Assembly (NCBI RefSeq): GCF_018889955.1
Contig: NZ_CP076545.1
Location: 1,178,001 to 1,242,000, forward strand
DNA length: 64,000 nt
Source of the DNA: Collinsella sp. zg1085
GTDB taxonomy: Bacteria; Actinomycetota; Coriobacteriia; Coriobacteriales; Coriobacteriaceae
Direction of reading: 5' to 3'
The notes under the pieces were generated by a model. The model saw only the letters and a program-made list of their open reading frames with translations. It made no database searches and was not told the DNA's origin. Each line of letters opens with the position of its first letter. The first letter of the stretch is position 1. Of the stretch, positions 9,967 through 14,177 are shown one piece after another. A program made the translations under genes and the position numbers.

Positions 9967-11367
9967 CTATGACAAACCTCCAAGGATTGCCTCTTCTTCG
10001 ACAAGTGTAGCACGCACAAGTTTCATTTGCTGTGCTACTGCCTCAGGAGCTGTTCCTCCCTCAGTGTTGCGGGCAGCTACTATGCGCGCTATATCAAGCT
10101 CGCCCACAATATCGGCCTCAAAACACTCACTTGCACGTCTAAAATCTTCAAGCGCTAAGCCTGCAAAATCACAGCCGCGCTGCTCGCAGACAAGCACCAA
10201 TTGACCTACCACGGCATGTGCCTCACGAAACGGCATACCGCGCTTAACAAGATAATCGGCAATATCGGTTGCTGCTAAATAACCGCTCTGGCACGCTGCC
10301 CACATAGCATCAGCATGAAAAGTACAGGTCAAAAGCATGTCACTCATAAGTTCAAGAGATGCTTGCACCGTATGAGCTGAGTCGAACATGCCCGCTTTGT
10401 CTTCTTGTAAATCTTTATTATAGGCAAGCGGTAAGCCTTTCATGGTCACCAGCAGCTGCATAAGATTGCCATATACCCGCCCTGTTTTACCACGGATTAA
10501 CTCGGCAAAATCAGGGTTTTTCTTTTGCGGCATAATGCTTGACCCAGTTGAAAACTCATCAGAGAAGGTCACAAACCCAAATTCTGATGTGCTCCATATC
10601 ACAAGCTCCTCGCACAAGCGCGAAAGATGCATAGCGCATACTGAGGCCGCATACTGCAAATCAAGCAAAAAATCGCGATCGGATACCGCATCAAGTGAGT
10701 TGGGAATTACATCTGCAAAACCAAGCTCATATGCTGTCATACGCCGATTAAGCGGATAGCTTGTGCCCGCAAGCGCTGCTGCTCCCAAAGATGACATATT
10801 TGCTGCCTGATATGCCTCATAAAACCGCGTAAAATCACGCTTGAACATCCAAGCATAGGCTAAAAGATGATGAGCTAACAACACCGGCTGAGCATGCTGC
10901 AAATGCGTATAACCAGGGAGCACCGTATCTTTCTCTTGCTGAGCTAAGGTATGCAAGGTTGTACGCAGTGTATGTGTTGCCTGCATGAGAGACGCAGCCA
11001 GACGCTTAGCCGCCAAGCGCGTGTCAGTCACTACCTGATCGTTGCGTGAGCGTCCGGTGTGTACGCGTTTGCCAGCCTCTCCAATACGTGCAATCAGCTC
11101 GCGCTCAACTGCCATATGAATATCTTCGTCGTTTATATCAAAGGTAAATGCACCTGCATCAATATCATGCTCTATTGAGGTAAGCCCTGCAACAATTGCA
11201 TCGGCATCATCATGAGAAATAATGCCTTGTTGTGCCAGCATGGTTGCATGTGCCTTTGAGCCCTGAATATCTTCATGATATAGATGTCTGTCAACCGGCA
11301 GCGAAGCACCAAAGGCCTGTGTTGTTTCAGCAACACCCGCCTCAAATCTGCCACCCCAAAGCGCCAT
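9967..11367 (-). CDS. argH: Argininosuccinate lyase
   Basis: A 466-residue member of the fumarase/aspartase superfamily that splits argininosuccinate into arginine and fumarate, the last step of arginine synthesis. The start MALWGGRFEAGVAETTQAFG is typical; HTGRSRNDQV and the mobile-loop signature GSSIMPQKKNPD carry the catalytic residues. AGAGG 6 nt before ATG 11367 decides the start over the ATG at 11373. It lies 61 bp downstream of argG on the same strand, almost certainly one operon under the arginine attenuator at 12894-13179. Confidence 0.96.
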   Translation of the reverse strand: MALWGGRFEAGVAETTQAFGASLPVDRHLYHEDIQGSKAHATMLAQQGIISHDDADAIVAGLTSIEHDIDAGAFTFDINDEDIHMAVERELIARIGEAGKRVHTGRSRNDQVVTDTRLAAKRLAASLMQATHTLRTTLHTLAQQEKDTVLPGYTHLQHAQPVLLAHHLLAYAWMFKRDFTRFYEAYQAANMSSLGAAALAGTSYPLNRRMTAYELGFADVIPNSLDAVSDRDFLLDLQYAASVCAMHLSRLCEELVIWSTSEFGFVTFSDEFSTGSSIMPQKKNPDFAELIRGKTGRVYGNLMQLLVTMKGLPLAYNKDLQEDKAGMFDSAHTVQASLELMSDMLLTCTFHADAMWAACQSGYLAATDIADYLVKRGMPFREAHAVVGQLVLVCEQRGCDFAGLALEDFRRASECFEADIVGELDIARIVAARNTEGGTAPEAVAQQMKLVRATLVEEEAILGGLS

Positions 11368-11428
11368 AATCATCCTCTCGTATCTATTCTTATGCCTATA
11401 GGTTCAATTGCTACACGTACAGCGCGCA

Positions 11429-12790
11429 CTACCGCGCGGCAGCGTGTAGGCTATCTGCATAGTGCTCATGTTGATAGCTTGCATACACCTGCGGTGTCAC
11501 CGCTTTTACTTCTGGCGTCTGAACATCAAGCTCAGAGGCAGTTTTTTCAGATAGCTCACTTACAGAGGGTTCAGCCTGCTCGACCATTTTACGTGCCCAG
11601 GTCTTGAGTGAAAGCGCCTGAATATTGATAAAGCCCTTTGCATCACTCTGGTCAAACGCATCATCGTTATCATAGGTTGCCAAATTAAAATCATAGAGTG
11701 AATAAGCGCTCTTCCGGCCAATCACCACGCATGAACCCTTATAAAATTTGAGCTTAACAACACCGGTAACCGTTGTTTGGGTATATGCAAGAAATGCATC
11801 ATAGGCCTGCTTTAAGGGACTAAACCACTGACCGTTATATACCAAATCTGCCCAAGACTGCTCAATCTCAAGCTTCTTATGCAAGACCGAGCGCTCAAGA
11901 CACAAATCTTCAAGTGCCTTATGCGCCTGAATAAGCGCAAGACCTGCCGGCACCTCATAGCACTCACGCGACTTAAGCCCTACATAGCGATTCTCAATCA
12001 TGTCAATACGACCATAGCCATGAGACCCCGCAAGCTCGTTAAGCTCAGTAATAAGTTGCACCATAGGCATACTCATACCGTTTAAGCTCACAGGCACACC
12101 TGCCTCAAAACCAACTTCAACAACGCAAGGAGTGTCAGGCGCATCAACAGGATTGGTGGTCATCGTCCAAATATCTGAGGGCGGCTCAGCCCAAGGGTCT
12201 TCAAGCACGCCCGCCTCAATGGCACGACCCCACAGATTATCATCAATGGAATATGGCTTTTCAATACTTGCACCAACGGGTACCCCGTGTGCAAGCGCAT
12301 AGGCAATCTCATCGGGTCTCATGCCAAGGTTCCACTCACGAACCGGTGCAATAACCTTAAGCGAAGGGTCAAGCGTCAAAATTGAGGTCTCAAATCTCAC
12401 CTGGTCATTGCCTTTGCCGGTACAACCATGCGCAACATACTGTGCATGATATTTATGCGCCACCGCAACCAGATGAGCTGAGATAAGCGGACGCGACAAG
12501 GCAGAAAGCAGTGGATACTTGTTTTCATACATGGCATTTGCCGCAAGTGCGCACGTAATATATGAGCTACAAAACTCGTCCTGCATATCAATAACTTCAC
12601 AGGCCACTACACCCAGCGACAAGGCCTTTTCTTTGATTTGCTCAAGACCGTCATGCTCTTGCCCAACGTTTCCTAATACAGCAATAACATCTAAATTCTT
12701 TTCTTCTTGCAGCCATTTAACGCAGACTGACGTATCAAGACCACCTGAATAGGCCAAAACTACTTTTTCTTTTTGTGCAGATGCGCTCAT
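11429..12790 (-). CDS. argG: Argininosuccinate synthase with a C-terminal extension
   Basis: A 453-residue ATP-dependent ligase joining citrulline and aspartate. The N-terminal ATP-pyrophosphatase motif AYSGGLDTSV, the citrulline/aspartate-binding region (AHGCTGKGNDQVRFE) and the tetramer region are intact. The family is usually near 400 residues. Here about 45 extra residues follow LKTWARKMVEQ, a Ser/Glu/Thr-rich tail of unknown role. The start at 12790 is preferred because GAAAGG lies 7 nt upstream; the ATG at 12805 has none. First gene of argGH, with an arginine-codon leader and a terminator upstream. Confidence 0.95.
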   Translation of the reverse strand: MSASAQKEKVVLAYSGGLDTSVCVKWLQEEKNLDVIAVLGNVGQEHDGLEQIKEKALSLGVVACEVIDMQDEFCSSYITCALAANAMYENKYPLLSALSRPLISAHLVAVAHKYHAQYVAHGCTGKGNDQVRFETSILTLDPSLKVIAPVREWNLGMRPDEIAYALAHGVPVGASIEKPYSIDDNLWGRAIEAGVLEDPWAEPPSDIWTMTTNPVDAPDTPCVVEVGFEAGVPVSLNGMSMPMVQLITELNELAGSHGYGRIDMIENRYVGLKSRECYEVPAGLALIQAHKALEDLCLERSVLHKKLEIEQSWADLVYNGQWFSPLKQAYDAFLAYTQTTVTGVVKLKFYKGSCVVIGRKSAYSLYDFNLATYDNDDAFDQSDAKGFINIQALSLKTWARKMVEQAEPSVSELSEKTASELDVQTPEVKAVTPQVYASYQHEHYADSLHAAAR

Positions 12791-12893
12791 ACCATATCCT
12801 TTCAAACGGATTACCTATGAGTTCACAAACAGACGGCGCAACGCCTTATAAATGATGTATTACACGAGGTGTTGATATATGAGCTCAACGCAT

Positions 12894-12926
12894 AAAAAAG
12901 TTCGTCGAACTCATACTCGACGAACT
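12894..12926 (-). terminator. Intrinsic terminator of the argGH attenuator
   Basis: On the minus strand AGTTCGTCGA (12926-12917) and TCGACGAACT (12908-12899) form a perfect 10-bp stem with an 8-nt loop, followed by TTTTTT. It lies about 105 bp upstream of argG and 46 nt after the stop codon of the Arg-rich leader peptide. The ascending arm can instead pair with the Arg codons of the leader (CUCGACGA at 12986-12979 with UCGUCGAG at 12923-12916), which would dissolve the terminator. Confidence 0.85.
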
Positions 12927-12972
12927 GAACGTGAACCCAAATAACAGCTAGTGCCTCAAACGATGGGCGACG

Positions 12973-13083
12973 TTATCGTCGTCGAGCAATCGTGCGGCGG
13001 CGTCGGTTGGTGTGTGCAGCAACAAAGGAAGCACCTGCAAGCAGTGCCTGTGAAAACATCTTTGTCGCAGTAGCAACTGACAT
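12973..13083 (-). CDS. Arginine-rich leader peptide of the argGH operon
   Basis: A 36-codon frame starting at ATG 13083 with GAAGGG 9 nt upstream. It ends RRRRTIARRR-stop: seven Arg codons in the last ten, one run at 13005-12994 (CGA CGC CGC CGC) and one at 12984-12976 (CGA three times). The frame is open further up to a TTG at 13161, but that codon lies at the putative -10 box, so the ATG is preferred. The position between a promoter and an intrinsic terminator in front of arginine-synthesis genes is the layout of his, trp or leu attenuation leaders. The peptide probably has no function other than to time the ribosome. CGACG-ATAA-CGTCG at 12981-12968 can form a small protecting hairpin over the last Arg codons and stop. 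Confidence 0.72.
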   Translation of the reverse strand: MSVATATKMFSQALLAGASFVAAHTNRRRRTIARRR

Positions 13084-13150
13084 ACCAACAAACCCTTCAA
13101 CAATGACGCGTTCATCTAAACCCGTATGTCCAGTAAACGCGATAGCGGGT

Positions 13151-13179
13151 ATAGTACGCAAACTCGCTCAACTTAGCAA
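13151..13179 (-). promoter_or_regulatory. Probable promoter of the argGH leader
   Basis: On the minus strand, -35 TTGCTA (13179-13174) and -10 TACTAT (13156-13151) are separated by 17 bp. The predicted start near 13144 leaves about 60 nt before the leader-peptide ATG. Confidence 0.55.
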
Positions 13180-13337
13180 GTTAATTATTTCAAGTTGATA
13201 ACAGAGCAGTTCAGACTTGTAGCACGTCCTGCGTATAAACCGTTTTGGCTGAGCGCGGTATTGTTCTTTAGCACACTCAAGTATATCTCTGCTATCGTTA
13301 AGTGGATATGCACCGTATCAGAGAAAGGTTGCGCTAC

Positions 13338-14177
13338 ATGCTTCCCTGGTATACCGACGACACCAAACTTGAAACCGTCAAGCTCATTGCCAGTGACATG
13401 GACCTCACACTTATTGCCGATGATGGTAGTCTTCCGCCACGGCTAACCGAGCAGATTTTAGCCCTTGATGCAGCCGGGATAACATTTTGTGCAGCAAGCG
13501 GGCGGCCATACTACACCCTGCGCGCCATGTTTGCCGAGCTTGAAGGTCATATGGCCTTTCTCGCCGACAATGGGGCTGCAATATATGACCGTAAAACACC
13601 TGTTTTTCAAAATCTCATTGACCGAGAAACCTATCGTAGACTCCTTCAATTTACCAAGCAGGATGGGCGCGGTTGCCCTTGTGTTTGCGGTATTAACGCG
13701 TGCTATATCCCCCGTACATATCAACACTTTGATGATTACTTTCGGAGTTTTTACTCGGTCATCGATTACCGCGATAACCTAGACGAACTCGATGAAGCCG
13801 TTGATAAATACACGGTTTTCTTCCCCGAGTTTGATAGCGAAGAAATCTATGCAAGCTGCTATGGACCTGCCTTCAATCATGAATTTAGCGTCACAAATGC
13901 GGGCAAACAATGGATTGATATTATGAATCAAGGCGTGAATAAAGGCTCGGCTCTTACCATGTTAAGCGCACGCTTAGGCATCTCCCTTGATGACTGCATT
14001 GCAGCAGGCGACACCTACAACGATATTCAAATGCTTGAGCTTGCAGGTCATGCCTATGTAGTTTCAAACGCAGAGCCTCACATGGACGCGCATGGTACAC
14101 ATCGCATTCCAAGTAATAATGATTATGGTGTTGCAGAAGTGCTCGATGCTATACTTCAGGCGCAGACTAACCGTTAA
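13338..14177 (+). CDS. HAD-superfamily phosphatase, Cof/IIB type
   Basis: A 279-residue HAD hydrolase. Motif I is DMDLTLI (nucleophile Asp and acid/base Asp present; the usual Gly of DxDGT is Leu), motif II is CAASGRP, and motif IV is AAGDTYNDIQML. The IIB cap domain lies between, as in Cof/YidA sugar phosphatases. ATG 13338 is preferred because AGAAAGG lies 9 nt upstream; GTG 13302 and ATG 13308 in the same frame lack a ribosome site. It is transcribed away from argG and not obviously in an operon. Substrate unknown. Confidence 0.85.
   Translation: MLPWYTDDTKLETVKLIASDMDLTLIADDGSLPPRLTEQILALDAAGITFCAASGRPYYTLRAMFAELEGHMAFLADNGAAIYDRKTPVFQNLIDRETYRRLLQFTKQDGRGCPCVCGINACYIPRTYQHFDDYFRSFYSVIDYRDNLDELDEAVDKYTVFFPEFDSEEIYASCYGPAFNHEFSVTNAGKQWIDIMNQGVNKGSALTMLSARLGISLDDCIAAGDTYNDIQMLELAGHAYVVSNAEPHMDAHGTHRIPSNNDYGVAEVLDAILQAQTNR

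Follow-up and report, generated by a model that had tools for sequence, protein, structure and literature searches.

The argGH genes of Collinsella sp. zg1085 are preceded by a real, conserved leader reading frame rich in Arg codons and by a coevolving switch helix, and an attenuator model of these parts fits this locus and is partly shared by its relatives. Bacterial arginine biosynthesis is textbook ArgR territory, and ribosome-mediated transcription attenuators are familiar from the trp, his, leu, and thr operons. We studied a stretch of 64,000 nt from this genome (GCF_018889955.1, NZ_CP076545.1, positions 1,178,001-1,242,000), referred to as the window, and compared the argG leader region with that of related genomes. 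The reading that we prefer, and consider probable, is that argGH has a ribosome-sensing leader and that, in the window, the helix P1 serves as an antiterminator, with arginine starvation leading to read-through and sufficiency to termination. For this reading, translation of the leader is taken from conservation, P1 from coevolution, and the position switch from folding, while the codons and the downstream gene suggest the link to the arginine level.

Under this attenuator model, a leader peptide of approximately 37 codons would end in two Arg runs. When Arg-tRNA is scarce, the ribosome would halt in the first run, leaving the second run, CGA CGA CGA, free to pair with a distal arm and form P1. 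When Arg-tRNA is plentiful, the ribosome would reach the stop codon and cover the second run, so that P1 would be blocked. In the window, RNA polymerase would accordingly pass into argGH during starvation, and transcription would terminate under sufficiency. P1 can be assigned the role of antiterminator there because its distal arm doubles as the ascending arm of the terminator.

All of the elements lie on the minus strand, running from 13179 to 12790 in the order promoter, leader Shine-Dalgarno (SD) site, leader open reading frame (ORF), hairpin, terminator, and argG, followed by argH (Table 1). An earlier note on this DNA had described a 36-codon leader with an ATG and a ribosome site, ending in RRRRTIARRR-stop, and its coordinates proved correct (ATG at 13083, stop codon at 12975-12973). 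We also recovered the terminator that it had placed before argG (12926-12899, with 10 Watson-Crick pairs, two G-U pairs, and six U's reaching 12894), the complementarity of the Arg codons (12988-12979 with 12923-12914, 10 pairs including one G-U), and the hairpin CGACG-AUAA-CGUCG at 12981-12968, and curated models agree with its naming of argG and argH. The promoter-like pair that it had noted (TTGCTA, a 17-nt spacer, TACTAT) is present, and its -10 element is in register with a conserved block 5' of the leader in relatives (CTTTAGCGTAnTATAGCG); however, the match to the consensus is weak, and a strict promoter scan of the window did not call the pair. The divergent neighbor of the leader (13302-14177, plus strand) encodes a Cof-type HAD hydrolase.

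Table 1. Features of the argGH leader region, in window coordinates
Feature	Position	Strand	Basis or remark
Putative -35 element TTGCTA of the leader promoter	13174..13179	-	8/12 consensus together with the -10 element
Putative -10 element TACTAT	13151..13156	-	By-eye alignment with a -10-like block in relatives
Leader Shine-Dalgarno site AAGGG	13093..13097	-	Sequence; SD-like counterpart at this position in almost every relative
Leader ORF, 36 aa, MSVATATKMFSQALLAGASFVAAHTNRRRRTIARRR-stop	12973..13083	-	Sequence; C-terminus conserved in relatives
First Arg run, four codons	12994..13005	-	Sequence; conservation
Second Arg run CGA CGA CGA, 5' of the stop; supplies the 5' arms of both P1 and P2	12976..12984	-	Invariant in all aligned representatives
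P2, proximal hairpin holding the last Arg codons and stop	12968..12981	-	97% paired
P1, 5' strand (predicted antiterminator)	12979..12988	-	Coevolution, pair counts, folding
P1, 3' strand, also terminator ascending arm	12914..12923	-	Coevolution, folding
Intrinsic terminator hairpin and six U's	12894..12926	-	Counterparts in L131, L117, and L152
P4, 5' strand of long-range helix	12930..12938	-	24/24 representatives; swap test; pair types
P4, 3' strand, 28 nt 5' of the argG ATG	12819..12827	-	Same swap test; pair types
P5, weak hairpin AUCC...GGAU over the SD site of argG	12796..12811	-	Borderline swap test
argG, argininosuccinate synthase	11429..12790	-	TIGR00032, 511.8 bits
argH, argininosuccinate lyase	9967..11373	-	TIGR00838, 589.2 bits

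Among the 5598 stops in the window, the leader is the sole frame with at least six Arg residues in its last 10 codons. Its final run consists of CGA, which represents 8.5% of all Arg codons across long frames in the window. A pattern search for the leader C-terminus hit 41 of the 45 genomes of the genus Collinsella, with one exact match each, and all eight searched genomes of two sister genera; the reversed control pattern had no match in the same 45 genus genomes. The argG gene lies 190 to 430 nt downstream of the leader in every checked case but one (L128), for which an argG start was not found at the leader locus. Because the same C-terminus precedes argG across the genus and its sister genera, the leader cannot be put down to chance. 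A chance match without regulation would accord with the weakness of the promoter by consensus, but it is hardly credible against this conservation, the coevolution described below, and the uniqueness of the frame in the window.

The leader is likely translated, as judged from how it varies among 24 representatives. Its start codon lies 81 nt 5' of the conserved core in nearly all of them (78 nt in the window and in a single further representative), and most carry an SD-like site before it; the shorter frame of Collinsella aerofaciens has its own ATG and SD site. Within the core, RRQRAISRRR-stop, third codon positions hold 651 of the 776 pairwise differences (125 fall elsewhere), and at the Ala and Ile codons the third base alone varies, except for the Thr of the window. 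Residues upstream of the core drift, with 1191, 1165, and 1357 differences at the first, second, and third codon positions, respectively. The region of the Arg codons is under strong constraint at the RNA level, as could also be expected of a structured RNA, such as a riboswitch or a protein site, in which the reading frame is accidental. We consider this very improbable given the third-position pattern, the constant start codon and SD site, and the placement of an Arg-rich end before an arginine gene; in addition, Rfam, including T-box models, gave no match in the window or at the element in seven relatives.

The core amino acids, and not merely the Arg codons, are under selection, because Ala and Ile differ at the third base only, and this leaves room for nascent-chain sensing. 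In such a scheme, which would resemble TnaC or SpeFL, RRQRAISRRR itself would stall the ribosome as it completes the frame, in response to arginine or a related metabolite and not to a shortage of Arg-tRNA at the codons. Codon starvation alone needs no retention of Ala-Ile-Ser as amino acids with free third positions, and every member's peptide terminates exactly at RRR-stop, as nascent-peptide sensing would have it. However, RNA pairing likewise constrains the TCY codon and the third positions of the Arg codons, the residues upstream of the core drift freely, and the leader peptide had no family match in Pfam (up to E=10) or NCBIfam. We regard sensing by the nascent peptide as unlikely and retain a ribosome halted at Arg codons as the preferred signal.

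The pairing on which the attenuator model depends is present throughout the group. P1, which joins the last Arg codons to the distal arm, was found in 24/24 representatives, and cognate arms outperform swapped arms, with 0/5000 permutations (which ignore relatedness) reaching the observed value. In a fixed alignment, 91.3% of P1 cells are paired, a proportion as high in 3/500 shuffles, and one pair changes from C-G to U-A. The distal arm lies 45 to 67 nt past the leader stop; in the Enorma group it occupies a shifted register, still matching CGACGACGA. The proximal hairpin P2 is paired in 97% of cells over 23 sequences with little variation, and because its sequence hardly varies, P2 is compatible with the alignment rather than proven by it.

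To model the switch, only the RNA left free by a mock ribosome was folded for each ribosome position. In the window, P1 reaches 0.94 and the terminator 0.00 with Arg codon 1 in the A site, and 0.78 and 0.18, respectively, with the ribosome at Arg codon 3; the terminator takes over, at 0.98 to 0.99, once the ribosome stands at codon 4, codon 8, or the stop. The window RNA without a ribosome also prefers P1 (0.74 to 0.88), so that read-through would be expected from a leader that is not translated, barring kinetic trapping of the codons by P2. This predicted ribosome-free preference is a weak point of the simple attenuation model. Across the 24 species, we folded transcripts ending just past the distal arm (P1') with the ribosome at the second Arg codon, and P1 was dominant in all 24 (0.52 to 0.91, compared to approximately 0.2 for shuffled sequences). 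Because P1 dominates after an early stall in all of these species, the sensing step appears to be common to the whole group. The sensing half of the model, a translated Arg leader whose codons would pair with a downstream arm, is well supported by conservation and coevolution.

The output half, a terminator sharing an arm with P1, is conserved solely in the four-species clade of the window. Only the window and three sister species (L131, L117, and L152) show this overlap; together they form one clade in the argG tree, and the terminator stem of the sister species carries a compensating A-U to G-C change. At equilibrium, the folded terminator of these three species wins despite an early-stalled ribosome, so they would need cotranscriptional kinetics for the switch to operate. 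The C. intestinalis, C. stercoris, and C. provencensis types (class B) have a terminator just past P1' that forms in both ribosome states, and no terminator was found between the leader and argG in the remaining representatives. An intrinsic terminator is therefore ruled out as the common output, being excluded by P1 in one clade and separate or absent elsewhere. The earlier note had called the attenuator complete. Folding with the mock ribosome reproduces the stalling logic of that note in the window, and the Arg run and P1 are conserved and coevolving, but "complete" overstates the case for the family, because the overlapping terminator is restricted to one clade and a second conserved, long-range helix is present.

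This helix, P4, which the earlier note did not describe, is present in 24/24 representatives and reaches 16 contiguous pairs at its longest. Its two strands lie before P1' and, in most cases, 27 to 48 nt 5' of the argG AUG (95 nt in one representative). The helix coevolves: both strands change at several positions, and 0/20,000 permutations, which ignore relatedness, reach the observed value. P4 crosses P1, and because the helices cross, the two must form a pseudoknot or be alternatives. P4 is without a place in the simple attenuation model. In the window, P4 can form in read-through RNA only. Nearer to the gene, an anti-SD pairing of approximately 4 to 6 bp (P5 in the window, likewise new relative to the earlier note) is found in most representatives in two different sequence versions, with a borderline swap test in which 1000/20,000 swaps reach the observed value. 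We also considered whether P1 opens the argG SD site and rejected this, as nested folding gives similar access in two ribosome states (0.37 and 0.43).

These elements raise the alternative that P1, the crossing P4, and the SD hairpin together control argG translation or mRNA fate in the way of the LEU element and that the terminator was added locally, in the clade of the window. The universal and coevolving P4 with its end close to the argG start, the anti-SD pairing, and the lack of a P1-overlapping terminator in most representatives all agree with this account. However, the equal access to the SD site across ribosome states (under nested folding) and the borderline anti-SD swap test count against it, and we judge control at the level of argG translation to be rather unlikely as the main explanation. 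For the window, transcription attenuation through P1 remains the reading that we prefer.

The element is taxonomically narrow. In a GTDB-wide pattern scan, its hosts were Collinsella, Enorma, and "Candidatus Limicola," and no argG lay near the remaining pattern matches (Streptomyces, Planctomycetota, and others). A covariance model also confined the element to Collinsella and sister genera and recovered no distant homologues at convincing scores outside the Coriobacteriaceae. Weaker matches resembled chance and were taken as such because the inspected ones sit in coding sequence or unrelated frames; extra copies at other genes were rejected on the same inspection, the candidate matches scoring at most 35 bits. 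The leader was absent in 4 of the 45 genus genomes. One of these (G021) has no argG above the cutoff, two (G024 and G027) are incomplete genomes in which neither leader nor argG was found, and the fourth (G026, L019) has argG without a leader, its closest argG being that of C. aerofaciens, itself leader bearing. Upstream of argG in two genomes of a sister genus (L165 and L175, from G214 and G213, respectively), a frame ending in ..RICALPRRR-stop with CCCCGACGACGATAG may represent a leader relative that has decayed. In the Collinsella genomes G018 (L030/L065) and G008 (L031), argG groups with sister genus g22 and the leader is of the Collinsella type; judging from these sequences, argG seems to have been displaced beneath a kept leader. 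Comparable tree conflict for argG is seen in Enorma genomes G220 and G222.

The leader does not stand in for a lost ArgR. ArgR is encoded in 44 of the 45 genus genomes, scoring just under the curated cutoff, which rules out ArgR loss as the reason for the leader, and its presence counts against the attenuator reading. A TATGCA..TGCATA palindrome lies near argG in most leader-less relatives and is absent from leader-bearing genomes, which suggests that the leader may have taken the place of ArgR at argG, with the qualification that this motif was chosen after viewing the leader-less sequences. In the window genome, argC is absent above the cutoff and ornithine carbamoyltransferase is present; argGH here therefore probably converts citrulline to arginine. 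Seven genomes (G000, G001, G005, G015, G034, G035, and G067) have argG and the leader yet no argC above the cutoff, and these presumably make arginine from citrulline only. C. stercoris and a relative carry a Corio-PBP RNA (RF02945) near argG (L103:4908-4981 and L134:6374-6447).

With the attenuators of the trp, his, leu, and thr operons, the clade of the window shares a short leader with a run of end product codons, a terminator, an antiterminator involving the codon region, and biosynthetic genes downstream. The codon-run ORF with an SD site was found here as in those systems; a terminator between leader and gene was found in the window and three sisters and not in most relatives, and an antiterminator chosen by the ribosome to the exclusion of the terminator emerges from folding of the window and is ambiguous at equilibrium in the sister species. 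Unlike those systems, the end product is arginine and the genes are argGH, the terminator overlap is confined to one clade, and an additional conserved long-range helix crosses P1 and approaches the argG start. The LEU element of actinobacterial leuA combines a leader with a pseudoknot; here, P1 and P4 coevolve and cross and could form either a pseudoknot or alternatives. In the LEU element, the codon run pairs with the leuA SD site, whereas the codon run here pairs with an internal arm and not with the SD site of the first gene (PMC1262725). According to the same study, which makes no mention of Coriobacteriia, the regions preceding actinobacterial arginine operons showed no conserved RNA structure (PMC1262725).

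Arginine sensing by leader translation is known from other settings. The Salmonella orf34/speF leader (DUF2618) likewise has consecutive Arg codons and relies on the position of the ribosome and on alternative RNA structures to sense arginine, but it controls ornithine decarboxylase via Rho and mRNA decay (PMC6386406), and the SpeFL/DUF2618 peptide is unrelated to the leader here by the Pfam search described above. In the Staphylococcus aureus rbfL leader, pausing at Arg codons also signals arginine shortage, but there the pausing blocks the ribosome-binding site of a biofilm regulator, with no attenuator and in a nonbiosynthetic operon (PMC13009471). The earlier note knew of no described case for arginine synthesis in Actinobacteria, and likewise no arginine biosynthetic operon under ribosome-mediated attenuation turned up in our search of open-licence PubMed Central papers. 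That this is the first leader-peptide switch in arginine biosynthesis is not proven, as the claim rests on that body of literature.

Taken together, these elements may constitute a new Coriobacteriaceae family of arginine-sensing leader RNAs, with one conserved sensor and clade-specific outputs, in which argG was taken over from ArgR and the leader was kept despite argG replacement. The sensor would be the RRQRAISRRR-stop peptide with P1, and the outputs would be the overlapping terminator in the clade of the window and P4-mediated control elsewhere. We offer this joint reading tentatively, as a possibility that falls somewhat short of probable. Collinsella is a common human gut genus, and in it arginine synthesis would join the operons under leader-peptide control. 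The group also provides a natural series that combines a fixed sensor with outputs apparently varying by clade, so that the gain and loss of terminators by an attenuator may be directly studied.
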